Program-made: the position numbers and the translations under genes | Assembly: GCA_012728895.1 (NCBI GenBank) | Contig: JAAYEG010000023.1 | Span: 1 to 45,873 of the forward strand | Origin: Methanospirillum sp. | GTDB taxonomy: Archaea > Halobacteriota > Methanomicrobia > Methanomicrobiales > Methanospirillaceae | DNA length: 45,873 nt | Reading direction: 5' to 3' | In this document: positions 2,292-29,206 of the stretch, in pieces | How the letters are laid out: each line of letters begins with the position of its first letter | Position numbering within the stretch: the stretch's first letter is position 1 | Notes under the pieces: generated by a model | What the model saw: the letters and a program-made list of their open reading frames with translations, nothing else | Database searches by the model: none | Told to the model about the DNA's origin: nothing

Positions 2292-2975
2292 ATGTCCGTC
2301 GCCGTCATACCGTTCCGGCCGGTCGATCCCAAGACGCGGCTCTCGAACCTCCTCTCGCGCCGGGAGCGCGAGGATTTCGCCGGGGCCATGCTCGCCGACG
2401 TCACCGCCGCCGTGCGCGGCGCCGGGCTCGAGCCCCTGATCCTCTCCACCCACCCCTTCGAATGGCCCGACACCCTGGTCCGCGTGGCGGACGGCGGGCT
2501 CTCGAACGCGATCAACGGGCTCCTGCCCGAGCTCGAGGGGCCCGTGGTGGTGATCATGGCCGACCTCCCGCTCGTGACACCCGACACGGTCCGGCGCCTT
2601 GTCGGGTCGGTGGCCGAGTGCGCCATCGCCCCGGGCCGGGGCGGCGGCACGAACGCGCTCCTCATCCGGGACCCCGCGCACTTCCGGGTCGATTACTACC
2701 AGTGCTCGTTCCAGAAGCACCTCTCCGCCGCGAAGGCGTCGGGGCTCTCCGTCGAGGTCATCGACTCGTTCCGGCTCTACCTCGACCTGGACGAGGAGGA
2801 GGACCTGGTCGACCTGCTCATACACGGAGAGGGGCGGGCCCGCGACTGCCTGTGCGGGCTCGGGTTTTCGCTCGCGGTGACGCGCGGGCGGGTGGGGATC
2901 GTCCGCCGCCGGCTCCCCGGCGCGCGCGCCGCCGCGCAGGAACCGCCGGCAAAACTGGCGGAGAGGGGGGAATGA
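2292..2975 (+). CDS. cofC: 2-phospho-L-lactate guanylyltransferase CofC
   Basis: A 227-residue protein. CofC activates 2-phospho-L-lactate (or phosphoenolpyruvate) with GTP, making the guanylyl-linked precursor that CofD transfers to Fo in F420 synthesis. The N-terminus VIPFRPVDPKTRLSNLLS (5-22) is the family's nucleotide-binding signature with the essential basic residues. MADLPLV (about 94-100) is the metal-binding Asp motif, and GRGGGTNALL (about 118-127) is the conserved glycine-rich loop. The C-terminal 25 residues (Arg/Ala-rich) look like a non-conserved tail. The gene starts about 124 bp from the divergent dockerin gene. The ABC transporter gene follows after 12 bp, so they may be co-transcribed. 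Confidence 0.92.
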   Translation: MSVAVIPFRPVDPKTRLSNLLSRREREDFAGAMLADVTAAVRGAGLEPLILSTHPFEWPDTLVRVADGGLSNAINGLLPELEGPVVVIMADLPLVTPDTVRRLVGSVAECAIAPGRGGGTNALLIRDPAHFRVDYYQCSFQKHLSAAKASGLSVEVIDSFRLYLDLDEEEDLVDLLIHGEGRARDCLCGLGFSLAVTRGRVGIVRRRLPGARAAAQEPPAKLAERGE

Positions 2976-2987
2976 GACAGGTGCCAG

Positions 2988-3980
2988 ATGTCCGGCGATG
3001 ACGATGTGATCCGGGTCGAGGGGCTCACGCACCGGTTCGGGGACCTCCTCGCGGTCGACAGCGTCTCGTTCGCCGTCCGGGCCGGCGAGGTCTTCTCGTT
3101 CCTGGGCCCGAACGGAGCGGGGAAGTCGACGGTGATCAACGTTTTGACCACCCTCCTGCCGCTCCAGGACGGCGAGGTGGTGATCGCGGGCCGCGACCTC
3201 CGGTCCAACCCCGACCGGGTCCGCGAGGCGATCGGGATCGTCTTCCAGGAGACGACCCTCGACCGCGACATGACCGTGGCCGAGACCCTGGAGTTCCACG
3301 GACGGCTCTACGGCCTCTCGCGCGAGGAGCGGCGGGCGCGGGTCGACGAGCTCGTCACCCTGGTCGAGCTCGGCGCCAAGCGCAACATCCTGATCAAGCA
3401 CCTCTCGGGCGGCATGAAGCGGCGGCTCGAGATCGCCCGCGGGCTGATGACCCGGCCGACCGTCCTGTTCCTGGACGAGCCGACGATCGGGCTCGATCCC
3501 CAGACACGGGCCCGGACCTGGGACTACCTCAAGGCCGTCAACCGGGAGGGGACCACGATCTTTCTGACGACCCACTACATGGACGAGGCCGACCAGCTCT
3601 CGGACCGGATCGCGATCATCGACCACGGCCGGATCGTCGCCGAGGGCCGGCCGGACGCGCTCAAGAACGCGCTCGGCCGGGACCTCGTCTACCTGGAGAC
3701 GGGCGAGAACGGGCGGGCCCGCGCCGTGCTCGACAGGGCCCCCGACGTGGGCTCTGTCCGCGAGAAGGGAGAGGGGCTCCTCGCGACCGTCACCGACGAC
3801 GGGACGCGCGTCCTGCCGCGGATCCTGGACGCCCTCCACGCCGAGGGTGTCCCGGTGACCGCGATCAACATGAAGAAGCCCTCGATGGACGACGTCTTCA
3901 TCCACCACACGGGCAGGGCGCTCCGCGACGAGGGGGCCGGGAAACCCGCGCCGCCGCCCGGCCGGGCGGGGAGGCGGTGA
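2988..3980 (+). CDS. ABC-2 type exporter, ATP-binding subunit (DrrA-like)
   Basis: A 330-residue ATPase subunit. Walker A is GPNGAGKST (40-48), the Q-loop Q87 lies in VFQETTLD, the signature is LSGGMKRR (139-146), Walker B plus catalytic Glu is LFLDEP (160-165), and the switch His is H196 in TTHYMDE. The C-terminal region (about 215-310) is the extra domain found in daunorubicin-type (DrrA) ATPases, ending in KKPSMDDVFIHHTGR, which is typical of that group. It is followed by its permease with overlapping stop and start codons. Known relatives export lipophilic compounds or polysaccharide and lipid precursors; the substrate here cannot be read from the sequence. Confidence 0.9.
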   Translation: MSGDDDVIRVEGLTHRFGDLLAVDSVSFAVRAGEVFSFLGPNGAGKSTVINVLTTLLPLQDGEVVIAGRDLRSNPDRVREAIGIVFQETTLDRDMTVAETLEFHGRLYGLSREERRARVDELVTLVELGAKRNILIKHLSGGMKRRLEIARGLMTRPTVLFLDEPTIGLDPQTRARTWDYLKAVNREGTTIFLTTHYMDEADQLSDRIAIIDHGRIVAEGRPDALKNALGRDLVYLETGENGRARAVLDRAPDVGSVREKGEGLLATVTDDGTRVLPRILDALHAEGVPVTAINMKKPSMDDVFIHHTGRALRDEGAGKPAPPPGRAGRR

Positions 3981-4819
3981 TGGCGGACCTGAGGTTGCTC
4001 ACCATCTACTGGCGCGACATGCTCCGGTTCGTCAGGTTCCGGGGCCTCCTCATCTCGTCGCTCGTCCAGCCGGCGCTCTGGCTCGCCTTCTTCGGGATCG
4101 CGATGTCGAGCAGCTTCGACGTGATCGGGTCCCAGATCCCGGCGGAACCCGGCGTTCCGCAGGTCGGCTACCTCACCTTCATGTGCGCCGGGGTCATCTC
4201 GATGACCACGCTCTTCACCAGCCTGTTCGGCGGGATGAGCCTGATCTTCGACAAGAACTGGGGCCTGCTCCGGGAGGTGATGGCCGCGCCGATGAGCCGC
4301 GCGAACATCGTGCTCGGCACCGGGCTCTCGGGAATCACCAAGTCCATCATCCAGGCCGCCATCATCCTGGGCTTCGGCCTCGTTCTCGGCGTCCAGTTCT
4401 TCGCCGGCTACACCCCGTCCCGGGCCGTGCTCGCGATCGCCGGGATCCTGGCCTTCGTCTCGGTCTTCGCGCTCGGCTTCGTCTTCCTCTCGGCGGCGAT
4501 CGCCATCACGATGGAATCGCCGGAGGGGATGCAGGGGATCATGACCCTGCTGACGATGCCGATCTTCTTCGCCTCGAACGCGCTCTACCCGGCCCAGGCC
4601 TTCCCGCCGGCCCTGCAGCTCGCGGCCGCGGTCAACCCGCTCACGCACATGGTGACCGGGATCCGCTTCTTCGCCATCGGCCCGGTCTTCTCGGCGATCG
4701 GCCAGACCTTCAGGTACTCGGTCGCCGATATCGCCGTCTCGTTCGGGGCGCTCTGCCTCTTCGCGACCGTCATGTTCCTGGTCGCCCTCCGGCAGGTCCG
4801 GCGGGCCAGGGTCACGTGA
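3980..4819 (+). CDS. ABC-2 type exporter, membrane subunit (DrrB-like)
   Basis: A 279-residue membrane protein with about six hydrophobic segments: near residues 22-40, 58-80, 100-125, 138-165, 172-190 and 245-270. It has the ABC2_membrane layout, with the family's ...REVMAAPMSR... loop near residue 95 and a MVTGIRFFAIGP segment near 222-233. The ATG at 3980 overlaps the ATPase stop codon (GTGATG, a GTG at 3977 being an in-frame alternative), and GGAGG at 3970-3974 gives a good ribosome site. It forms the membrane half of the exporter. Its last 8 bases overlap the convergent CARF-HEPN gene end (4812-4819). Confidence 0.88.
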   Translation: MADLRLLTIYWRDMLRFVRFRGLLISSLVQPALWLAFFGIAMSSSFDVIGSQIPAEPGVPQVGYLTFMCAGVISMTTLFTSLFGGMSLIFDKNWGLLREVMAAPMSRANIVLGTGLSGITKSIIQAAIILGFGLVLGVQFFAGYTPSRAVLAIAGILAFVSVFALGFVFLSAAIAITMESPEGMQGIMTLLTMPIFFASNALYPAQAFPPALQLAAAVNPLTHMVTGIRFFAIGPVFSAIGQTFRYSVADIAVSFGALCLFATVMFLVALRQVRRARVT

Positions 4820-5987
4820 CCCGGTCGAGCGCCTCGAGGGCCGCGACGGCCGCCGCGGCCCGGCGCTCGATCACGCGGACCGCCTTCGGCTGCTCGTTCA
4901 TGCCGCAGTGCGCGAGGTCGTTCCGGAGCTCCGCGATCGCCTGCCAGACCCCCACGACGGCATCGGCGCCCGGCAGGGCCTCGAACCGGTCCGAGAACCG
5001 GGTCGGTTCGAACGGCCGGCGCTGCCGGGCGAGCATCGCGCCGGTGGCGGTGCGGCTCACCTCGTGCCGGACGTCCCGGTCGAGCCAGTTTTCGGCCGGG
5101 CAGCCGAGCCGGAGCAGGAGCAGGCTGATCAGCCATTCCCGCCCGAGCTCGACCGCCTGGAGAACGAGCCCGTGGTCGAGCTGGTAGCGGACGAGCGCCC
5201 GCTGCCGTTCGAGCAGTCCCGCGTCGAGCACGCTCTCGTCCGCGCCGAACGGGGCGATCCCGTCGAGCCGGTCGAGGAGCGGCCGGAGCGCGGGCAGGTC
5301 GGCCGCCACCTCCTGCTCGACCGCCCCGATCCGCTCGTGGACCAGGTGGGCGGCGAGGAAGGCCTCGACCGGCCGCGAGAGCCGGACGGCGGCCGTGAAC
5401 CGGGCCAGGTTGTTCGCGAACGGCTTGAGCAGGATGGGCGGGGGCTCCCTCCCCTCGCGGTGGGCGCGGTCCTGGACCCCGGCGAAGAGGGCGGCGAGCG
5501 CGCCGGCGTCGAGGTGGGCCAGGAACCCCTCGACCGCGCCGACCCAGTCGAGCACCGCCACGAACCCGGTCAGGTCGTGGACCGGCAGCTCGGTCGCCTC
5601 CCGGTCTGGACGCGCGCCGTAGAAGACGCGCTCGATCGTCGCCCCCTTCAGAGCGCGGAGGTAGAGGAGAGCGAGGAAGACCACGAACGGGAGCGGGCCC
5701 GGCGCGTGCGTCAGGTCCACGACCAGCCGGTCGCCCTCGTCGACAACCCCGCAGAAAGCCTCGAAACAGTCCCAGAGGCCGGACTCCGAGTCCCAGTCGG
5801 GGAGCGGGACGATGTCCCCGTCCCCGGGCCCGGTCTCGCCGGGGGCGAAAAAGACCATCTCGTCCGGCTCGAGCAGGACGACCAGGGCGCCGGCGACGGT
5901 CAGGGACCGGCAGGCCCGTTCGTCGCAGACCCAGACCCGGGGGTCGGCCGCGCCCTCGAACGGGACGAAGGAGAGGAGCTTCGTCAT
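4812..5987 (-). CDS. CARF-HEPN domain protein, Csx1/DxTHG-family ribonuclease-like (orphan)
   Basis: A 391-residue protein not obviously part of a CRISPR locus. Residues 88-100, LVVDLTHAPGPLP, match the DxTHG signature of CRISPR-associated CARF proteins (Csx1/TM1812 type), with Ala in place of the final Gly. The region around 1-135 alternates strands and helices as a Rossmann-like CARF fold would. GLVLQAVELGREWL (273-286) matches the start of the linked helical domain of that family, and R355-N-D-L-A-H360 is the HEPN R-x4-H active-site motif. Known relatives sense cyclic oligoadenylate through CARF and cut RNA through HEPN. No cas gene or CRISPR array is visible in this window. The start ATG overlaps the FmdE-family gene's stop by 4 bases (5984-5987), so the two are probably co-translated. 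Family membership is inferred from motifs alone. Confidence 0.75.
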   Translation of the reverse strand: MTKLLSFVPFEGAADPRVWVCDERACRSLTVAGALVVLLEPDEMVFFAPGETGPGDGDIVPLPDWDSESGLWDCFEAFCGVVDEGDRLVVDLTHAPGPLPFVVFLALLYLRALKGATIERVFYGARPDREATELPVHDLTGFVAVLDWVGAVEGFLAHLDAGALAALFAGVQDRAHREGREPPPILLKPFANNLARFTAAVRLSRPVEAFLAAHLVHERIGAVEQEVAADLPALRPLLDRLDGIAPFGADESVLDAGLLERQRALVRYQLDHGLVLQAVELGREWLISLLLLRLGCPAENWLDRDVRHEVSRTATGAMLARQRRPFEPTRFSDRFEALPGADAVVGVWQAIAELRNDLAHCGMNEQPKAVRVIERRAAAAVAALEALDRVT

Positions 5988-6580
5988 CGTCTCGCGCAGG
6001 GGATGCAGAGCCTGAGGCCGGCGCGCTCGACGGCGCGGTGCTCGGAGACCGGTTCCCCGCAGCCGTCGCAGACGATCGAGCGGTAGATCCTCGCCGGCCC
6101 GGGGAGGGGGGCGGCGGCAGGGGTCACGACGAAGAGGTCGCCGGCAGGGGCCGCGAGGATCGCGTCGCAGACGGCCCGGAGCCGGCGGTCGAACTCGTCG
6201 CGCTCCTCCGGGGGTGCCGTGCCGCCGCGGACCCGCTCGCGGAGAAGGTCCAGCCCGGGATCGAACCGCGCGGTCGAGAAGTCCGGGCGGGTGGCGACCC
6301 GGACTCCCCGGCCGGTGGCCCGGTTGTAGAAGGTGTAGACGTGCTTGCCGTGGTCGAGGAAGCGGAGGTTGCCCTTGCCGAAGGTGCAGCCGGCCCGCAC
6401 CTGGATCCCGTCCACGCCGCAGGCGTCGTTCTCGACCACCGCGACGACCTCCTCGTCGCCCGGGGGGGCGGTGCCGAGCGCCTCGAGGCCGACGGCGGCG
6501 GCACGGTACCCGAGCGCGAGCCCGGGGCAGCGGTGACCATGAAACTCGACGGCGTCGTCGAAGGAGTGGGTGCCTGTCAT
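5984..6580 (-). CDS. FmdE-family protein with C-terminal zinc-finger
   Basis: A 198-residue protein. The N-terminal half has the FmdE signature FHGHRCPGLALGYRA (13-27), with His and Cys residues that bind metal in the family, followed by VENDACGVDGIQ and GCTFGKGNL, both hallmarks of FmdE. The last 35 residues hold CDGC...CIPC, a treble-clef or rubredoxin-like zinc site. FmdE proteins occur beside molybdenum formylmethanofuran dehydrogenase in methanogens, but their biochemical role is not well defined and there is no fmd operon here. The ATG at 6580 is the first Met preceding the conserved domain. It is the upstream partner of the CARF-HEPN gene with an ATGA overlap. Confidence 0.85.
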   Translation of the reverse strand: MTGTHSFDDAVEFHGHRCPGLALGYRAAAVGLEALGTAPPGDEEVVAVVENDACGVDGIQVRAGCTFGKGNLRFLDHGKHVYTFYNRATGRGVRVATRPDFSTARFDPGLDLLRERVRGGTAPPEERDEFDRRLRAVCDAILAAPAGDLFVVTPAAAPLPGPARIYRSIVCDGCGEPVSEHRAVERAGLRLCIPCARR

Positions 6581-6618: not shown

Positions 6619-7170
6619 TCAGAGCGCCGCGGCCCCGGCGGACGGGCCCGGGGAGAACGCCACGACGATCCGTTCGATCCCGAAGATGATCGCGTAGATC
6701 CCGAGCACCCAGACGAGAGCGACGGCACCGGCGACGGGGTTCGTCATGATGTACAGCCCGGCGATCACGCCGATGATCCCCGCGATGAGCGTGAGCCACC
6801 AGTACGGTGCGCTCCTGTCCGCGATCCCGGCGAAGATCTGGAACAGCCCCAGGACGAAGGCCCAGATCCCGACCAGGATGGTGACGGTCAGGACGAACCC
6901 CACCGGGTTCCAGAGCGCGAGGACGCCCAGGATGAGGGTGACCACGGCGGCCCCGACCAGGAGCCACCGCAGGTTGCCGGACCCGCCGCCGGCCGCGATA
7001 CCGCCGAATAGCAGCAGGATGCCCTCGATGATCGCGAAGATCGCGAAGACGAAGAGGAGGGAGGCGAGCGTGACTCCGGGCATCGCGAGGGCGTAGATAC
7101 CGAAGAGGATCGCGATGATCCCGGCGATGACCGACAGCCAGCGGTTGGGTGACGAGGATGAATCTACCAT
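6619..7170 (-). CDS. HdeD/DUF308-family membrane protein
   Basis: A 183-residue integral membrane protein with six hydrophobic helices arranged as three pairs (about 12-28, 34-57, 68-86, 91-115, 122-142, 147-172). Each pair has the pattern G-I-I-x(2-4)-G-(I/L)-x-(A/L), followed by a short NP or MP turn (MPGV, WNPVG, TNPVAG). That internal repeat and length fit the DUF308/HdeD family, known in E. coli from acid resistance; its function in archaea is unknown. A Shine-Dalgarno GGAGTGA lies 6 nt upstream of the ATG, and an AT-rich aaatattt element lies about 50 nt upstream. Confidence 0.85.
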   Translation of the reverse strand: MVDSSSSPNRWLSVIAGIIAILFGIYALAMPGVTLASLLFVFAIFAIIEGILLLFGGIAAGGGSGNLRWLLVGAAVVTLILGVLALWNPVGFVLTVTILVGIWAFVLGLFQIFAGIADRSAPYWWLTLIAGIIGVIAGLYIMTNPVAGAVALVWVLGIYAIIFGIERIVVAFSPGPSAGAAAL

Positions 7171-12213: not shown

Positions 12214-14592
12214 TCAGAGGCGGTTGAAGAGCCAGACGACGTCGGCGAAGTCTATCCGGCCGTTCCCGTTGCAGTCGAACGCCATGAGAGGCTCGTGCGC
12301 CGCGATCCAGTCCATCCGGTTGAAGAACAGGACGACGTCCGCGAAGTCGGCCCGCCCGTTGCCGTTCACGTCGTCGTAGAGCCCGTCGCCGTCGGTGTCG
12401 AGGGGCGGGTCGCCGGCGCCGCCGATCGGTGGAAGCGACTCGGGCGGGTAGCCCGGCGTTCCCTCGAGGATCTCGCCGAGCGAGAGGCCGTCGAAGGTGA
12501 TCCCGCCCGTGACCGAGGGGTCGTCGACGACCGCGAAGTGCGGGTCGGTGTGGTCCACGCGGTGCATGGCGCGCTCCCAGACCTTGATCGCGTCGAGGAC
12601 GAGCGGGTCGGCGGGATAGCGGGTGAGCCGCCAGCCGTCACCGTCGGGGACGGCCGGGTAGAGGGTGTACTGCGGCTGCTCTGCACCGCCCTCAGTCGCG
12701 TTCGCGACGACGTACCGGTCCGGCGAGGTATCGTTGCCCAGGACGTCACCGGTATCGTAGCGCCGAATCGCAGGGTCGGGCCGGTCCTCCCAGTTCTCGG
12801 CCCAGTAGCCGCCGATGGTCTTGAGCTCGGCGAGCGTCCGGCCATAGTAGCCGATGTCGCCGCCGGTCAGCGTCGTGTCGTTGACCACGACGAAGTGCGG
12901 GTCCGCGTGGGCCGTCCGGCGGAAGCCGTTCTCCCAGAGCCAGGTCTCGAACAGGTTGTCTTCGCCGTGCCAGTACTTCTCGATGTACCACCGCTCGCCC
13001 TGGTGCGTGACCCCGTAGGTCGTGTAGTACGGGTCGTCGCCGGGCTGCAGCACGCCGGCGATCAGGGTTCCGTTGGAGATATCGCCCGTGAGCCATAAGG
13101 GCGAGTTCCCCGAATCCTCGACCCAGTAGACAGCGCCGTGCAGCACCTCCCAGAGCGAGAGGCCGGCGTAGACCTGGTCGCCGCCGGTGATCGTCGTGTC
13201 CGTGATCACCACGTTGACGGGGTCGACGTGGCCGATCCGGAACGCGTGGAGGTTCTCGACCAGGTTCTGCTCGTCGACCTTCTGGTCCTGGTGCCAGTAG
13301 CGCGGGATCTCCCATCGTTCCCCGTTCTCTTCGGCGTCGTAGAGCGTGTAATACGGCGTCGGCAGGCTCGTGGTGTCGACGCTCGCGACGATGGCCGGGC
13401 GAGTCTGGTTCCCGGTGCCAATCGCGAGGAGGTCGCCGACGACGTAGCGCGGGGGAAGCGACGCGGGCGGGTCGCCCGGCGTCTCGATTGTGAGCGCGAG
13501 CGGAAGGAAGTCGGTCACGTCCTCGTTGATGACATAGGGCTCGTCGCAGAACCCGTCGCCGTCGCCATCGGCGTGGGTCTGCGAGAATCCGGTCCCGTCC
13601 GGCTTCGCCCAGGCGTTGCCGCCGATGAACGGACCCCCGACGATGTTCGGGCCGGCCGTCTTCGTGACGTTCAGCATCCCGGCCTCGGCCGCGCCGAAGA
13701 AGCCGTTGTCGGTGTTGTTCAGGTAGTTGTTCACGAGCAGTGACGACCAGTCGCCGCCGAGCGAGACACCCTGGCCGTTCCCGGTGATCCGGTTGGACGT
13801 GATGTTCGATCCGCCGCGATCGGTCGAGTCGACGCCGATCCCGGCGTTGTCCTCGATCCGGTTGCCCTCGATCGTCGCCCCGGCGTGCTCGAGCTGGATG
13901 CCGTTCCCGCCGTTGCCCCGGATCGTGCAGCCGCGGACGGTGAGCCCGCTCTCTCGGAGCGAGACGCCGTACTGATCGTTCTCCGAGACCTCGGAGTCCA
14001 GGAGAGAGTTCGGCGCGAGCCGGCCCGACAGGTCGGCCTCGAGGCCCGGGGCGTTCCCGGTCACGGTGCAGCGCTCGATCGTGATCCCGTCGCTCGGGTA
14101 CTGGAGGCTGATACCGGCCCCGGTGCTGTCGCGGATGACCGAGTCCCGGATCAAAACCCACCCTGCGCCGCCCATCCCGGCGTAGCCGCACCCGAGCCCC
14201 ACGCCGTTCCGTTCGAGCACGGCGTCCTCGATGACCGAGCCGTTCACGTGACCGATGTAGATCCCCCCGCTGCTGTCGCGGGCGGTCAGGTTCCGGACCG
14301 TCACGTTCGTGATCGGGCCGTCCGACGGGCCGGTGGCGAAGACGGCCCACCCGGTTCCGGCCGAGATCGCGTGGCCCATCCCGTCGAGGACGACGTCGGA
14401 GGTGTTGATCATCACTCCACCGGCGAGGTCATGGTCCAGGGAGTAGCTCCCGGGCCTGTCGATCAGCATCCCGGTGTCAGCGGCGGCGCCTGCCGGCGAC
14501 GCGGCGAGCAGGAAGAGCGCGGTCGCGAGCAGCACGACGAGCGCTCCCTCGGGCGCGGCATGGCGCCTCGATGCGTTGGTTCCATGGTTCAT
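12214..14592 (-). CDS. Secreted NosD-like beta-helix protein with three unclassified repeats and C-terminal dockerin
   Basis: A 792-residue extracellular protein. Residues 1-37 are a signal peptide. Residues about 45-365 are a right-handed beta-helix of the NosD/parallel-helix type, with periodic GNxIxxN and NGIxLE motifs and the NosD-like close GGNAWAKPDGTGFSQTH (324-340) and DGDGDGFCDEPYVI (342-355). Residues about 382-712 contain three related modules of about 100 residues (382-490, 498-598, 609-712) that share YYTLYDAEENGERWEIPRYW-like and DPxFxVVxDxTxTGG-like blocks. I do not recognise this module. Residues 734-792 are a dockerin with loops DVNGNGRADFAD (741-752) and DCNGNGRIDFAD (773-784). 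It probably docks to a cohesin on the cell surface. It lies convergent to purE and downstream of the other large dockerin gene's terminator side. Confidence 0.88.
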   Translation of the reverse strand: MNHGTNASRRHAAPEGALVVLLATALFLLAASPAGAAADTGMLIDRPGSYSLDHDLAGGVMINTSDVVLDGMGHAISAGTGWAVFATGPSDGPITNVTVRNLTARDSSGGIYIGHVNGSVIEDAVLERNGVGLGCGYAGMGGAGWVLIRDSVIRDSTGAGISLQYPSDGITIERCTVTGNAPGLEADLSGRLAPNSLLDSEVSENDQYGVSLRESGLTVRGCTIRGNGGNGIQLEHAGATIEGNRIEDNAGIGVDSTDRGGSNITSNRITGNGQGVSLGGDWSSLLVNNYLNNTDNGFFGAAEAGMLNVTKTAGPNIVGGPFIGGNAWAKPDGTGFSQTHADGDGDGFCDEPYVINEDVTDFLPLALTIETPGDPPASLPPRYVVGDLLAIGTGNQTRPAIVASVDTTSLPTPYYTLYDAEENGERWEIPRYWHQDQKVDEQNLVENLHAFRIGHVDPVNVVITDTTITGGDQVYAGLSLWEVLHGAVYWVEDSGNSPLWLTGDISNGTLIAGVLQPGDDPYYTTYGVTHQGERWYIEKYWHGEDNLFETWLWENGFRRTAHADPHFVVVNDTTLTGGDIGYYGRTLAELKTIGGYWAENWEDRPDPAIRRYDTGDVLGNDTSPDRYVVANATEGGAEQPQYTLYPAVPDGDGWRLTRYPADPLVLDAIKVWERAMHRVDHTDPHFAVVDDPSVTGGITFDGLSLGEILEGTPGYPPESLPPIGGAGDPPLDTDGDGLYDDVNGNGRADFADVVLFFNRMDWIAAHEPLMAFDCNGNGRIDFADVVWLFNRL

Positions 14593-14883: not shown

Positions 14884-16446
14884 CTACAGGTTGTTGAAGA
14901 GCGAGGCGATGTCGGCGAAGTCGATCCGTCCGTTCCCGTTGAAGTCGAATGCCGGCAGTGGCTCGTGCGCCGCGATCCAGTCCATCCGGTTGAAGAACAT
15001 GACCACGTCCGCGAACTCGATCTGGCCGTTGCCGTTCACGTCCTCGTGGAGCCCGTCCCCGTCCAGGTCGCGCGGGGGGGACCCGCCGATGGGTTCGACC
15101 GTGACAGTCGTGGTCGGGGCCGGCGTGGACCCGGTGGTCGGGGAGGGGGAGATCGACGCCGCCACGGTCGGGGAGGACGTCGGTGTCGTGGTCACCGGCG
15201 AGACGGTGAAGTCGGGCGTCGGCGGGACGGGTGTCGGCGTCGGGGTCGGGGTCGGGGTCGGCACCGGCGTCAGGGCCGGCGCCGTCCCCTCGATCGCGAA
15301 CTTCTGGATCCGGTGGTTGTCACAGTCGACGACGTAGACGCTGCCCGCGCCGTCGACCGCGATCCCCCCGGGACTCTCGAACTGCCCCGGCCCGGTCCCC
15401 CGTGTCCCCCAGCCCGCTCGGAACATCCCGTCCGGCGTGAACTTCTGGACCCGGTGACTGCCGACCTCGGTCACGTAGATGTTCCCGGCGCCGTCGACCG
15501 CGATGTCCCAGGGTTCGACGAACTGGCCCCTGGTATCGGTGCCCCACTCCGCGAGCAGGGTGCCGTTCGTCGTGAACGTCAGGGTCCGGTTCATGACAGA
15601 GTCGACCGCATAGATGCGGCCCGCCCGGTCGGCCGCGATCCCGCGGAGATCGCTGTAGAGCTCCCCGTCTCCGTGCGTCTCCCACCTGGTGACGAACGCC
15701 CCTCCCGGCGTGAACTTCGTGATCCGGGCCGTGCCCCCGATCATATCCGTGATGTAAACGAATCCCGACCCGTCCACCGCGATGTCGAACGGAGAGTGAA
15801 ACTGCCCGTCCTCGTGGCCCTCGGTCCCCCACTCCGCGAGCAGGGTGCCGTCCGGCGCGAACTCCAGGACGCGGAACGCCCCCGGATCCACGACGAGGAC
15901 GTCTCCCGCGGGGTCCACCGTGATGCCCGACAGATCGGCGAATCCCCCGAGGTCGGCTCCTTCGCCGGCCCACGTCTCGAGGAACGTGCCGTTCCGGTCG
16001 AACTTCTGGACCCGCCTGTTGCCGCTGTCGGTCACGTAGACGTTCCCCGCGCCGTCGACCGCGATGTCCCCGGGGTAGTAAAACTGACCCTCACCGGAGC
16101 CGTTGGACCCCCACGTTGCGGTGACGACGTAGGTGTCCGCCGTCGGGACGGATGTCGGTCTCACGGTCACCGGCGAACCGGTGAACGGGAGGGCTGTCGG
16201 TGGAGGAGTCCCCGCCGGCGCCGGTGTCGGCAACCGACCCTCCTCCACGGACCCCTGGACCCGCGGGGTGTCCCAGCCGACGGAAAAGACGCTTCCCGCG
16301 CCCTCGACCGGGATCCCGCCGGGATGGTCGGGCGGGCCGTCACCGGTTTCCCACCCGGCGGTGATCGCGTATGTCTCCACGGCCGTGACGGCCAGCACGC
16401 TGCCGCAGGCGAGCAGCAGGATACAGATGATCGGGATGCGCCGCAC
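14884..16446 (-). CDS. Secreted NHL-repeat beta-propeller protein with Thr-Pro linkers and C-terminal dockerin
   Basis: A 520-residue protein. Residues 1-23 are a signal peptide. Residues 27-65 contain a partly decayed copy of an NHL-type repeat (GGIPVEGAGSVFSVGW), then a Pro/Thr linker (70-103). Residues about 106-385 carry six NHL-type repeats with the pattern G-x-F-x-x-P-x-x-I-A-V-D-x-A-G-x-V-Y-V-x-D-x-x-x-x-R-I/V-x-K-F, forming a beta-propeller. Residues about 392-457 are a second Thr/Pro-rich linker. Residues 462-520 are a dockerin with loops DVNGNGQIEFAD (469-480) and DFNGNGRIDFAD (501-512); the Glu at loop position 9 in the first copy replaces the usual Asp. The dockerin is very close in DNA to the neighbouring beta-helix protein's dockerin. 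NHL propellers often bind proteins or glycans. Confidence 0.9.
   Translation of the reverse strand: MRRIPIICILLLACGSVLAVTAVETYAITAGWETGDGPPDHPGGIPVEGAGSVFSVGWDTPRVQGSVEEGRLPTPAPAGTPPPTALPFTGSPVTVRPTSVPTADTYVVTATWGSNGSGEGQFYYPGDIAVDGAGNVYVTDSGNRRVQKFDRNGTFLETWAGEGADLGGFADLSGITVDPAGDVLVVDPGAFRVLEFAPDGTLLAEWGTEGHEDGQFHSPFDIAVDGSGFVYITDMIGGTARITKFTPGGAFVTRWETHGDGELYSDLRGIAADRAGRIYAVDSVMNRTLTFTTNGTLLAEWGTDTRGQFVEPWDIAVDGAGNIYVTEVGSHRVQKFTPDGMFRAGWGTRGTGPGQFESPGGIAVDGAGSVYVVDCDNHRIQKFAIEGTAPALTPVPTPTPTPTPTPVPPTPDFTVSPVTTTPTSSPTVAASISPSPTTGSTPAPTTTVTVEPIGGSPPRDLDGDGLHEDVNGNGQIEFADVVMFFNRMDWIAAHEPLPAFDFNGNGRIDFADIASLFNNL

Positions 16447-26353: not shown

Positions 26354-29206
<2,853 letters not shown>

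Follow-up and report, generated by a model that had tools for sequence, protein, structure and literature searches.

Gene content of the locus

The window, that is, the whole 45.9-kb stretch of DNA that was analysed, was found to contain a gene for a CARF-HEPN protein (Csx1-like, 391 amino acids) at positions 4812-5987 of the minus strand, with an ATG start and with matches in PADLOC, PDB profile and Foldseek searches. Directly upstream lay a gene for an FmdE-family protein (PF02663) of 198 amino acids with a C-terminal zf-dskA_traR zinc finger (5984-6580, minus strand), preceded by the gene of a DUF308 membrane protein (6619-7170, minus strand) that was syntenic in most of the genus. The ATG of the CARF gene and the TGA of the FmdE gene were found to overlap as ATGA, as the initial annotation had it, and this overlap was conserved across the genus; in G009, a genome of another genus, the two genes abut. 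The region downstream of the CARF gene was occupied by the convergent genes of a DrrA-DrrB type ABC transporter, namely the syntenic DrrA-type ATPase (2988-3980, plus strand) and the DrrB-type ABC-2 permease (3977-4819, plus strand), followed by a CofC-like gene (2292-2975, plus strand; named from sequence and not by family search) that was syntenic in the genus and in G009. The 3′ ends of the permease gene and the CARF gene overlap by 8 bases. The 45.9-kb window was searched for CRISPR-like arrays and none was found, in line with the initial annotation. Elsewhere in the window, four paired repeats (924-1055, 12241-12372, 14911-15042 and 26381-26512) were found to code for the dockerin-like ends (DFNGNGRIDFADVV, NGNGRRDFADI) of proteins that are putatively secreted.

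Domain assignment of the CARF-HEPN protein

The CARF domain was found to occupy residues ~1-165, followed by the presence of a C-terminal HEPN domain with R355, N356 and H360. Residues 60-385 were matched by the PADLOC profile CARF2--CARF_HEPN at 7.6e-64, far beyond chance, and by the PADLOC Csx1/Csm6 profile at 1.9e-55. The CARF part was matched by NCBIfam TIGR02221 (cas_TM1812) at 5.7e-17, yet its 62.4 bits were below the curated cut-off of 76.25, and no match was found in a Pfam search of the protein. The PDB search with the single sequence gave chance matches only; with a profile of 30 relatives it returned Csx1-Crn2 (8y75) at 1e-15 and also the DxTHG-family protein 6qzq. The AlphaFold model, built from six sequences, was weak (mean pLDDT 62, pTM 0.40); its N-terminal half was alpha/beta and its C-terminal half helical, and the best Foldseek matches of this low-confidence model were all Csx1/Csm6 proteins. 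Its secondary structure and its best Foldseek matches were used, and the pocket residues were placed by alignment only.

The order of a CARF domain followed by a HEPN domain, a feature of Csx1/Csm6, was thus present in the PADLOC and PDB profile matches, and the HEPN R-x4-6-H active site was represented by R355, N356 and H360. The CARF-HEPN identity proposed in the initial annotation was borne out by the PADLOC profiles, the PDB profile matches 8y75 and 6qzq and the Foldseek matches, and its R-x4-H motif was recovered as RNDLAH (codons for residues 355-360 at 4908-4925, minus strand). The block DLTHAPGPLP, which had been likened to the DxTHG signature, is present at residues 91-100 (codons at 5688-5717, minus strand) but departs from that signature as DLTHA-P-G, and its His is replaced by Tyr in four of the seven genus members.

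Distribution of the gene

The CARF-HEPN gene was found in all seven genomes of the genus at the same chromosomal place, and its frame was intact in the seven species at 71-77% identity. The locus of G006 was divided between two contigs, each holding a part of the surroundings of the CARF gene. The whole arrangement was also found in G009, with identities of 57% for FmdE and 37% for CARF-HEPN. The relatives from named records were Methanoregulaceae and Methanomicrobiales MAGs. Among the 232 genomes of the order, 31 contained a CARF-HEPN match and 21 contained Cas10; both were present in 10 genomes, and 21 of the 31 CARF-HEPN genomes were without detectable Cas10. No relative was found in the viral contigs searched.

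Search for CRISPR and cyclase genes

The Cas10 palm domain (PF22335), the type III RAMP proteins (PF03787) and the SMODS cyclase were found in none of the seven genus genomes, and each of these searches gave a signal in control genomes. mCpol (PF18182) was likewise found in none of the seven; this was a weaker test, in which the sole control genome to give a signal lay below the cut-off. Three of the seven genomes are more than 90% complete and none is closed; a Cas10 gene may be missed in any one of them, and its being missed across all seven is unlikely. The search for Cas10 elsewhere in the genome, proposed in the initial annotation, gave none in the genome or the genus, and the Cas10 and type III genes that Csx1/Csm6 proteins have in their locus or genome were absent.

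Cas1 was found in all seven genus genomes. The window's own genome was found to contain a type I-E locus with Cas1, Cas3, Cse1 and a protein of the CRISPR_assoc family (PF08798), together with an array whose repeat is 29 nt long; the array search covered the window and the surroundings of Cas1. The other Cas1 of this genome is a lone gene beside RNA polymerase genes. This stand-alone Cas1 (304 amino acids; contig 63, L157:9546-10460) also has NusA-like KH genes beside it, and the adjoining protein of 1194 amino acids gave no Pfam or PADLOC match; a Cas1 of like score was present in several other genus genomes. The CARF-HEPN gene of the window is a true orphan.

Conservation of the ligand pocket and the nuclease site

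The motifs were compared in 36 CARF-HEPN proteins, among them 13 relatives with a CRISPR link, all from the same order (five encoded no more than 20 kb from Cas10, the other eight in CRISPR contexts), and the seven genus members. The CRISPR-linked relatives were found to contain a conserved motif I, SF-G-x-G, after the first strand in 12 of 13 cases, with GG replacing G-x-G in one, followed by a conserved motif II, D[IL]TH[GA][FY]R, in all 13, with G95A in three. Motif I was lost in all seven genus members, in which a proline-rich stretch stands at the position of G-x-G. Motif II of the genus reads DLT[HY]A[PST]G, with G95 replaced by Ala and the basic residue R97 replaced by Gly in 7/7. In the cyclic oligoadenylate (cOA) pocket of TtCsm6, cA4 is held by residues of the same two motifs, G58-T59-S60 and T133, G135 and K137, and the K137A substitution abolished cA4 binding and RNase activity (PMC10897365). 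Judged by motif pattern, R97 would be the equivalent of TtCsm6 K137. The two motifs of a cOA pocket, a G-x-G following strand 1 and a T-x-G-x-K/R following strand 4, were both missing in the genus; T93 and Y123/G124 were retained. In G009 the D-x-T of motif II reads E-I-Q. The nucleotide sensing put forward in the initial annotation is doubtful in its CRISPR form, given the changes in both cOA-pocket motifs.

These data bear on the possibility that the protein is still a cOA-activated Csx1 effector, with cOA supplied by a missed Cas10 or other synthase or brought by mobile elements. The full-length CARF-HEPN homology, the retained T93 and Y123/G124 and the lack of a closed genus genome are consistent with such activation, but it is distinctly unlikely given the loss of motif I, the Gly in place of the basic residue of motif II in 7/7, and the absence of the Cas10 palm domain, RAMPs, mCpol and SMODS in 7/7.

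The HEPN residues R355, N356 and H360 were invariant in all 36 proteins, and the HEPN block L354-P367 was identical in the seven genus members. The dN/dS values within the genus were 0.11-0.40 (Nei-Gojobori), and the CARF-HEPN gene is under purifying selection in the genus. The loss of the pocket motifs and of Cas10 would also be expected if the gene were a degenerate, functionless leftover of a type III system that has been lost, "cast adrift" as in the published case of VC1899 (PMC7969007); such simple decay is disfavoured because selection acts on the gene, and the intact frame in seven species at the identities given above, the identical HEPN block and the synteny conserved over two genera make this explanation very unlikely.

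The FmdE partner

The upstream FmdE protein matched PF02663 at 6e-42 (143 bits against a gathering threshold of 22.9) and was found to contain both FHGHRC, the H-x-H-x-C metal site, and the C-terminal CxxC...CxxC zinc finger. Absence of the gene pair from close relatives had been named in the initial annotation as evidence against its proposal; the pair was found to be adjacent in all seven genus genomes and in G009, and most of its FmdE members keep both metal sites. In G006 the FmdE reading frame, although open, is shortened and has YGRRR in place of HGHRC, and the CARF-HEPN gene is intact (the genome is a MAG and an assembly error is possible). FmdE relatives were present in 76 of the 108 genomes of the family, and in 20 of their neighbourhoods neither a CARF gene nor the locus of the window was present. 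FmdE was absent from the remaining CARF-HEPN loci in the order and from 12 loci of the phylum search. A second FmdE-family gene in the window's own genome (contig 15:7007-7576, L136) adjoins an ABC transporter ATPase gene.

The structure of the FmdE family suggests that its members act in regulation, bind RNA or sense metals (PMC2954224). The two genes may form a toxin-antitoxin or sensor-effector pair, in which FmdE, with its zinc and treble-clef finger, would restrain or trigger the RNase in response to the metal or redox state. The ATGA overlap in the genus, the abutting genes in G009, the synteny of the whole locus in two genera and the metal sites of most FmdE members argue for such a pair; it is nevertheless unlikely in view of the shortened G006 FmdE without HGHRC beside an intact CARF-HEPN gene (subject to the same possible assembly error), the lack of FmdE at all other CARF-HEPN loci examined, and the many FmdE relatives in the family without an adjoining CARF gene. 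The pair noted in the initial annotation is conserved but narrow, and the proposed functional link to FmdE or metal handling was not upheld, as the pair is absent from the other loci, the g12 clade described below has no FmdE and the G006 FmdE is degenerate. FmdE is at most a lineage-specific partner, because the 20 neighbourhoods were free of CARF genes and FmdE was degenerate in G006 with CARF-HEPN intact.

Other CARF-HEPN clades

Ten proteins of genus g12 were found to form one clade (support 100/99), fixed between a glycosyltransferase and the ketol-acid reductoisomerase (KARI), with DUF1805, USP and AIM24 genes near. No FmdE neighbour was found in the g12 orphan loci. Some genomes of this clade also have, at other places, Cas10 and further CARF-HEPN genes that are linked to CRISPR. 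Motif II of the ten proteins reads D[IV]T[ADS]G, and YA stands where the CRISPR-linked proteins have YG. The proteins of the window's genus (g1) and G009 form a further clade (support 100/98). A shared origin of the two orphan clades is possible but not supported, as the branch uniting them had support of 49/13. Pocket change together with HEPN retention, as read from the aligned proteins, appears in two well-supported clades.

A third orphan group, g38 (L071, L073, L077 and L078), was found in Cas10-free genomes with the canonical DITHG[FY]R retained. The orphan state is thus not always accompanied by pocket change, since g38 keeps the canonical motif without Cas10. The CARF-HEPN neighbours were conserved at the g38 loci L071, L073 and L077, a RecQ helicase among them. 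Two tail-to-tail CARF-HEPN genes, one with DITHAYR and one with DITHGFR, were found in CRISPR contexts at L070 (G028), L086 (G215) and L069 (G217).

Proposed function

The protein is somewhat likely to be a former type III CRISPR effector of the Csx1 kind that has been kept as a cOA-independent HEPN RNase switch. This reading is based on homology, genomic fixation, the absence of Cas10, RAMPs, mCpol and SMODS, the motif changes and selection. A Csx1-kind effector would have stayed after the loss of its CRISPR system, or moved away from it, and become a vertically inherited chromosomal gene. The HEPN domain is predicted to be a ribonuclease still, given its invariant R-N-x3-H. The CARF pocket would have been remodelled so that cyclic tetra-adenylate is no longer taken by the known mode, a mode that was probably lost because both pocket motifs are gone and the synthases searched for are absent.

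In Csx1/Csm6 proteins the CARF dimer gates the HEPN dimer. The CARF dimer interface of the window protein may bind a ligand other than Cas10-made cOA, and by analogy with the divergent CARF of RtcR the candidates would be RNA ends or short oligonucleotides, or else a metabolite. Ligand binding would most likely render the HEPN pair active, as a dimeric RNase switch with presumed dimer gating, and the active HEPN would cut cellular RNA and slow growth under stress or infection. FmdE, co-translated in this lineage, may tune the CARF-HEPN protein and would not be essential. A non-cOA ligand is the simplest explanation of a rebuilt gate with a kept nuclease. It is also possible, albeit doubtful, that the protein of these methanogens responds to a signal of the cell other than cOA, be it RNA ends, a nucleotide or a redox or metal state relayed by FmdE. 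It would then serve as a housekeeping growth switch that arose from a CRISPR effector, and parallel cases would exist in two genera.

The locus offers a case in which the conversion of a CRISPR effector into a stand-alone switch can be tested, and a route to new CARF ligands. A CARF-HEPN annotation is no evidence of type III CRISPR, as the majority of such genomes in the order, without detectable Cas10, indicates.

Comparison with known systems

CARF-HEPN proteins are effectors activated by the product of Cas10. The window protein resembles Csx1/Csm6 in its domain order, the HEPN R-N-x3-H, the CARF D-x-T strand and the full-length profile match, but neither its genome nor its genus has Cas10 or type III genes, the G-x-G of motif I is lost, and motif II reads T-[HY]-A-x-G in place of T-H-G-F-R. 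It was not placed among the cOA-activated effectors because two of their defining features were sought and found to be absent.

The orphan CARF protein VC1899 (Can2/DUF1887 family) is likewise a CARF nuclease without type III CRISPR and with a pocket unsuited to cA4, left without its ligand (PMC7969007); it has another nuclease domain, whereas the window protein has an invariant HEPN site and a gene fixed throughout the genus. RtcR also contains a divergent CARF outside CRISPR, which reads tRNA ends with a 2′,3′-cyclic phosphate (PMC7790460), but RtcR drives transcription through an AAA+ domain and the output here is a predicted HEPN RNase. The two-gene module of mCpol and CARF-HEPN shares the presence of CARF-HEPN outside CRISPR (PMC8730458), but no mCpol was found in the seven genus genomes. 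The upstream protein resembles the FmdE family (PF02663, with a treble-clef finger) in its Pfam match and metal-site residues (PMC2954224), but it is paired with CARF-HEPN and does not lie by formylmethanofuran dehydrogenase genes. In 2014 every CARF family was noted to include genes without a link to CRISPR (PMC4012209).

The literature search returned no paper uniting CARF, HEPN and FmdE. We know of no CARF-HEPN protein that is fixed genus-wide without detectable Cas10 and that combines an altered pocket with a retained nuclease. As far as the literature searched shows, the genus-wide fixation without Cas10, the combination of a changed pocket with a kept nuclease, the FmdE partner and the g12 clade are new.
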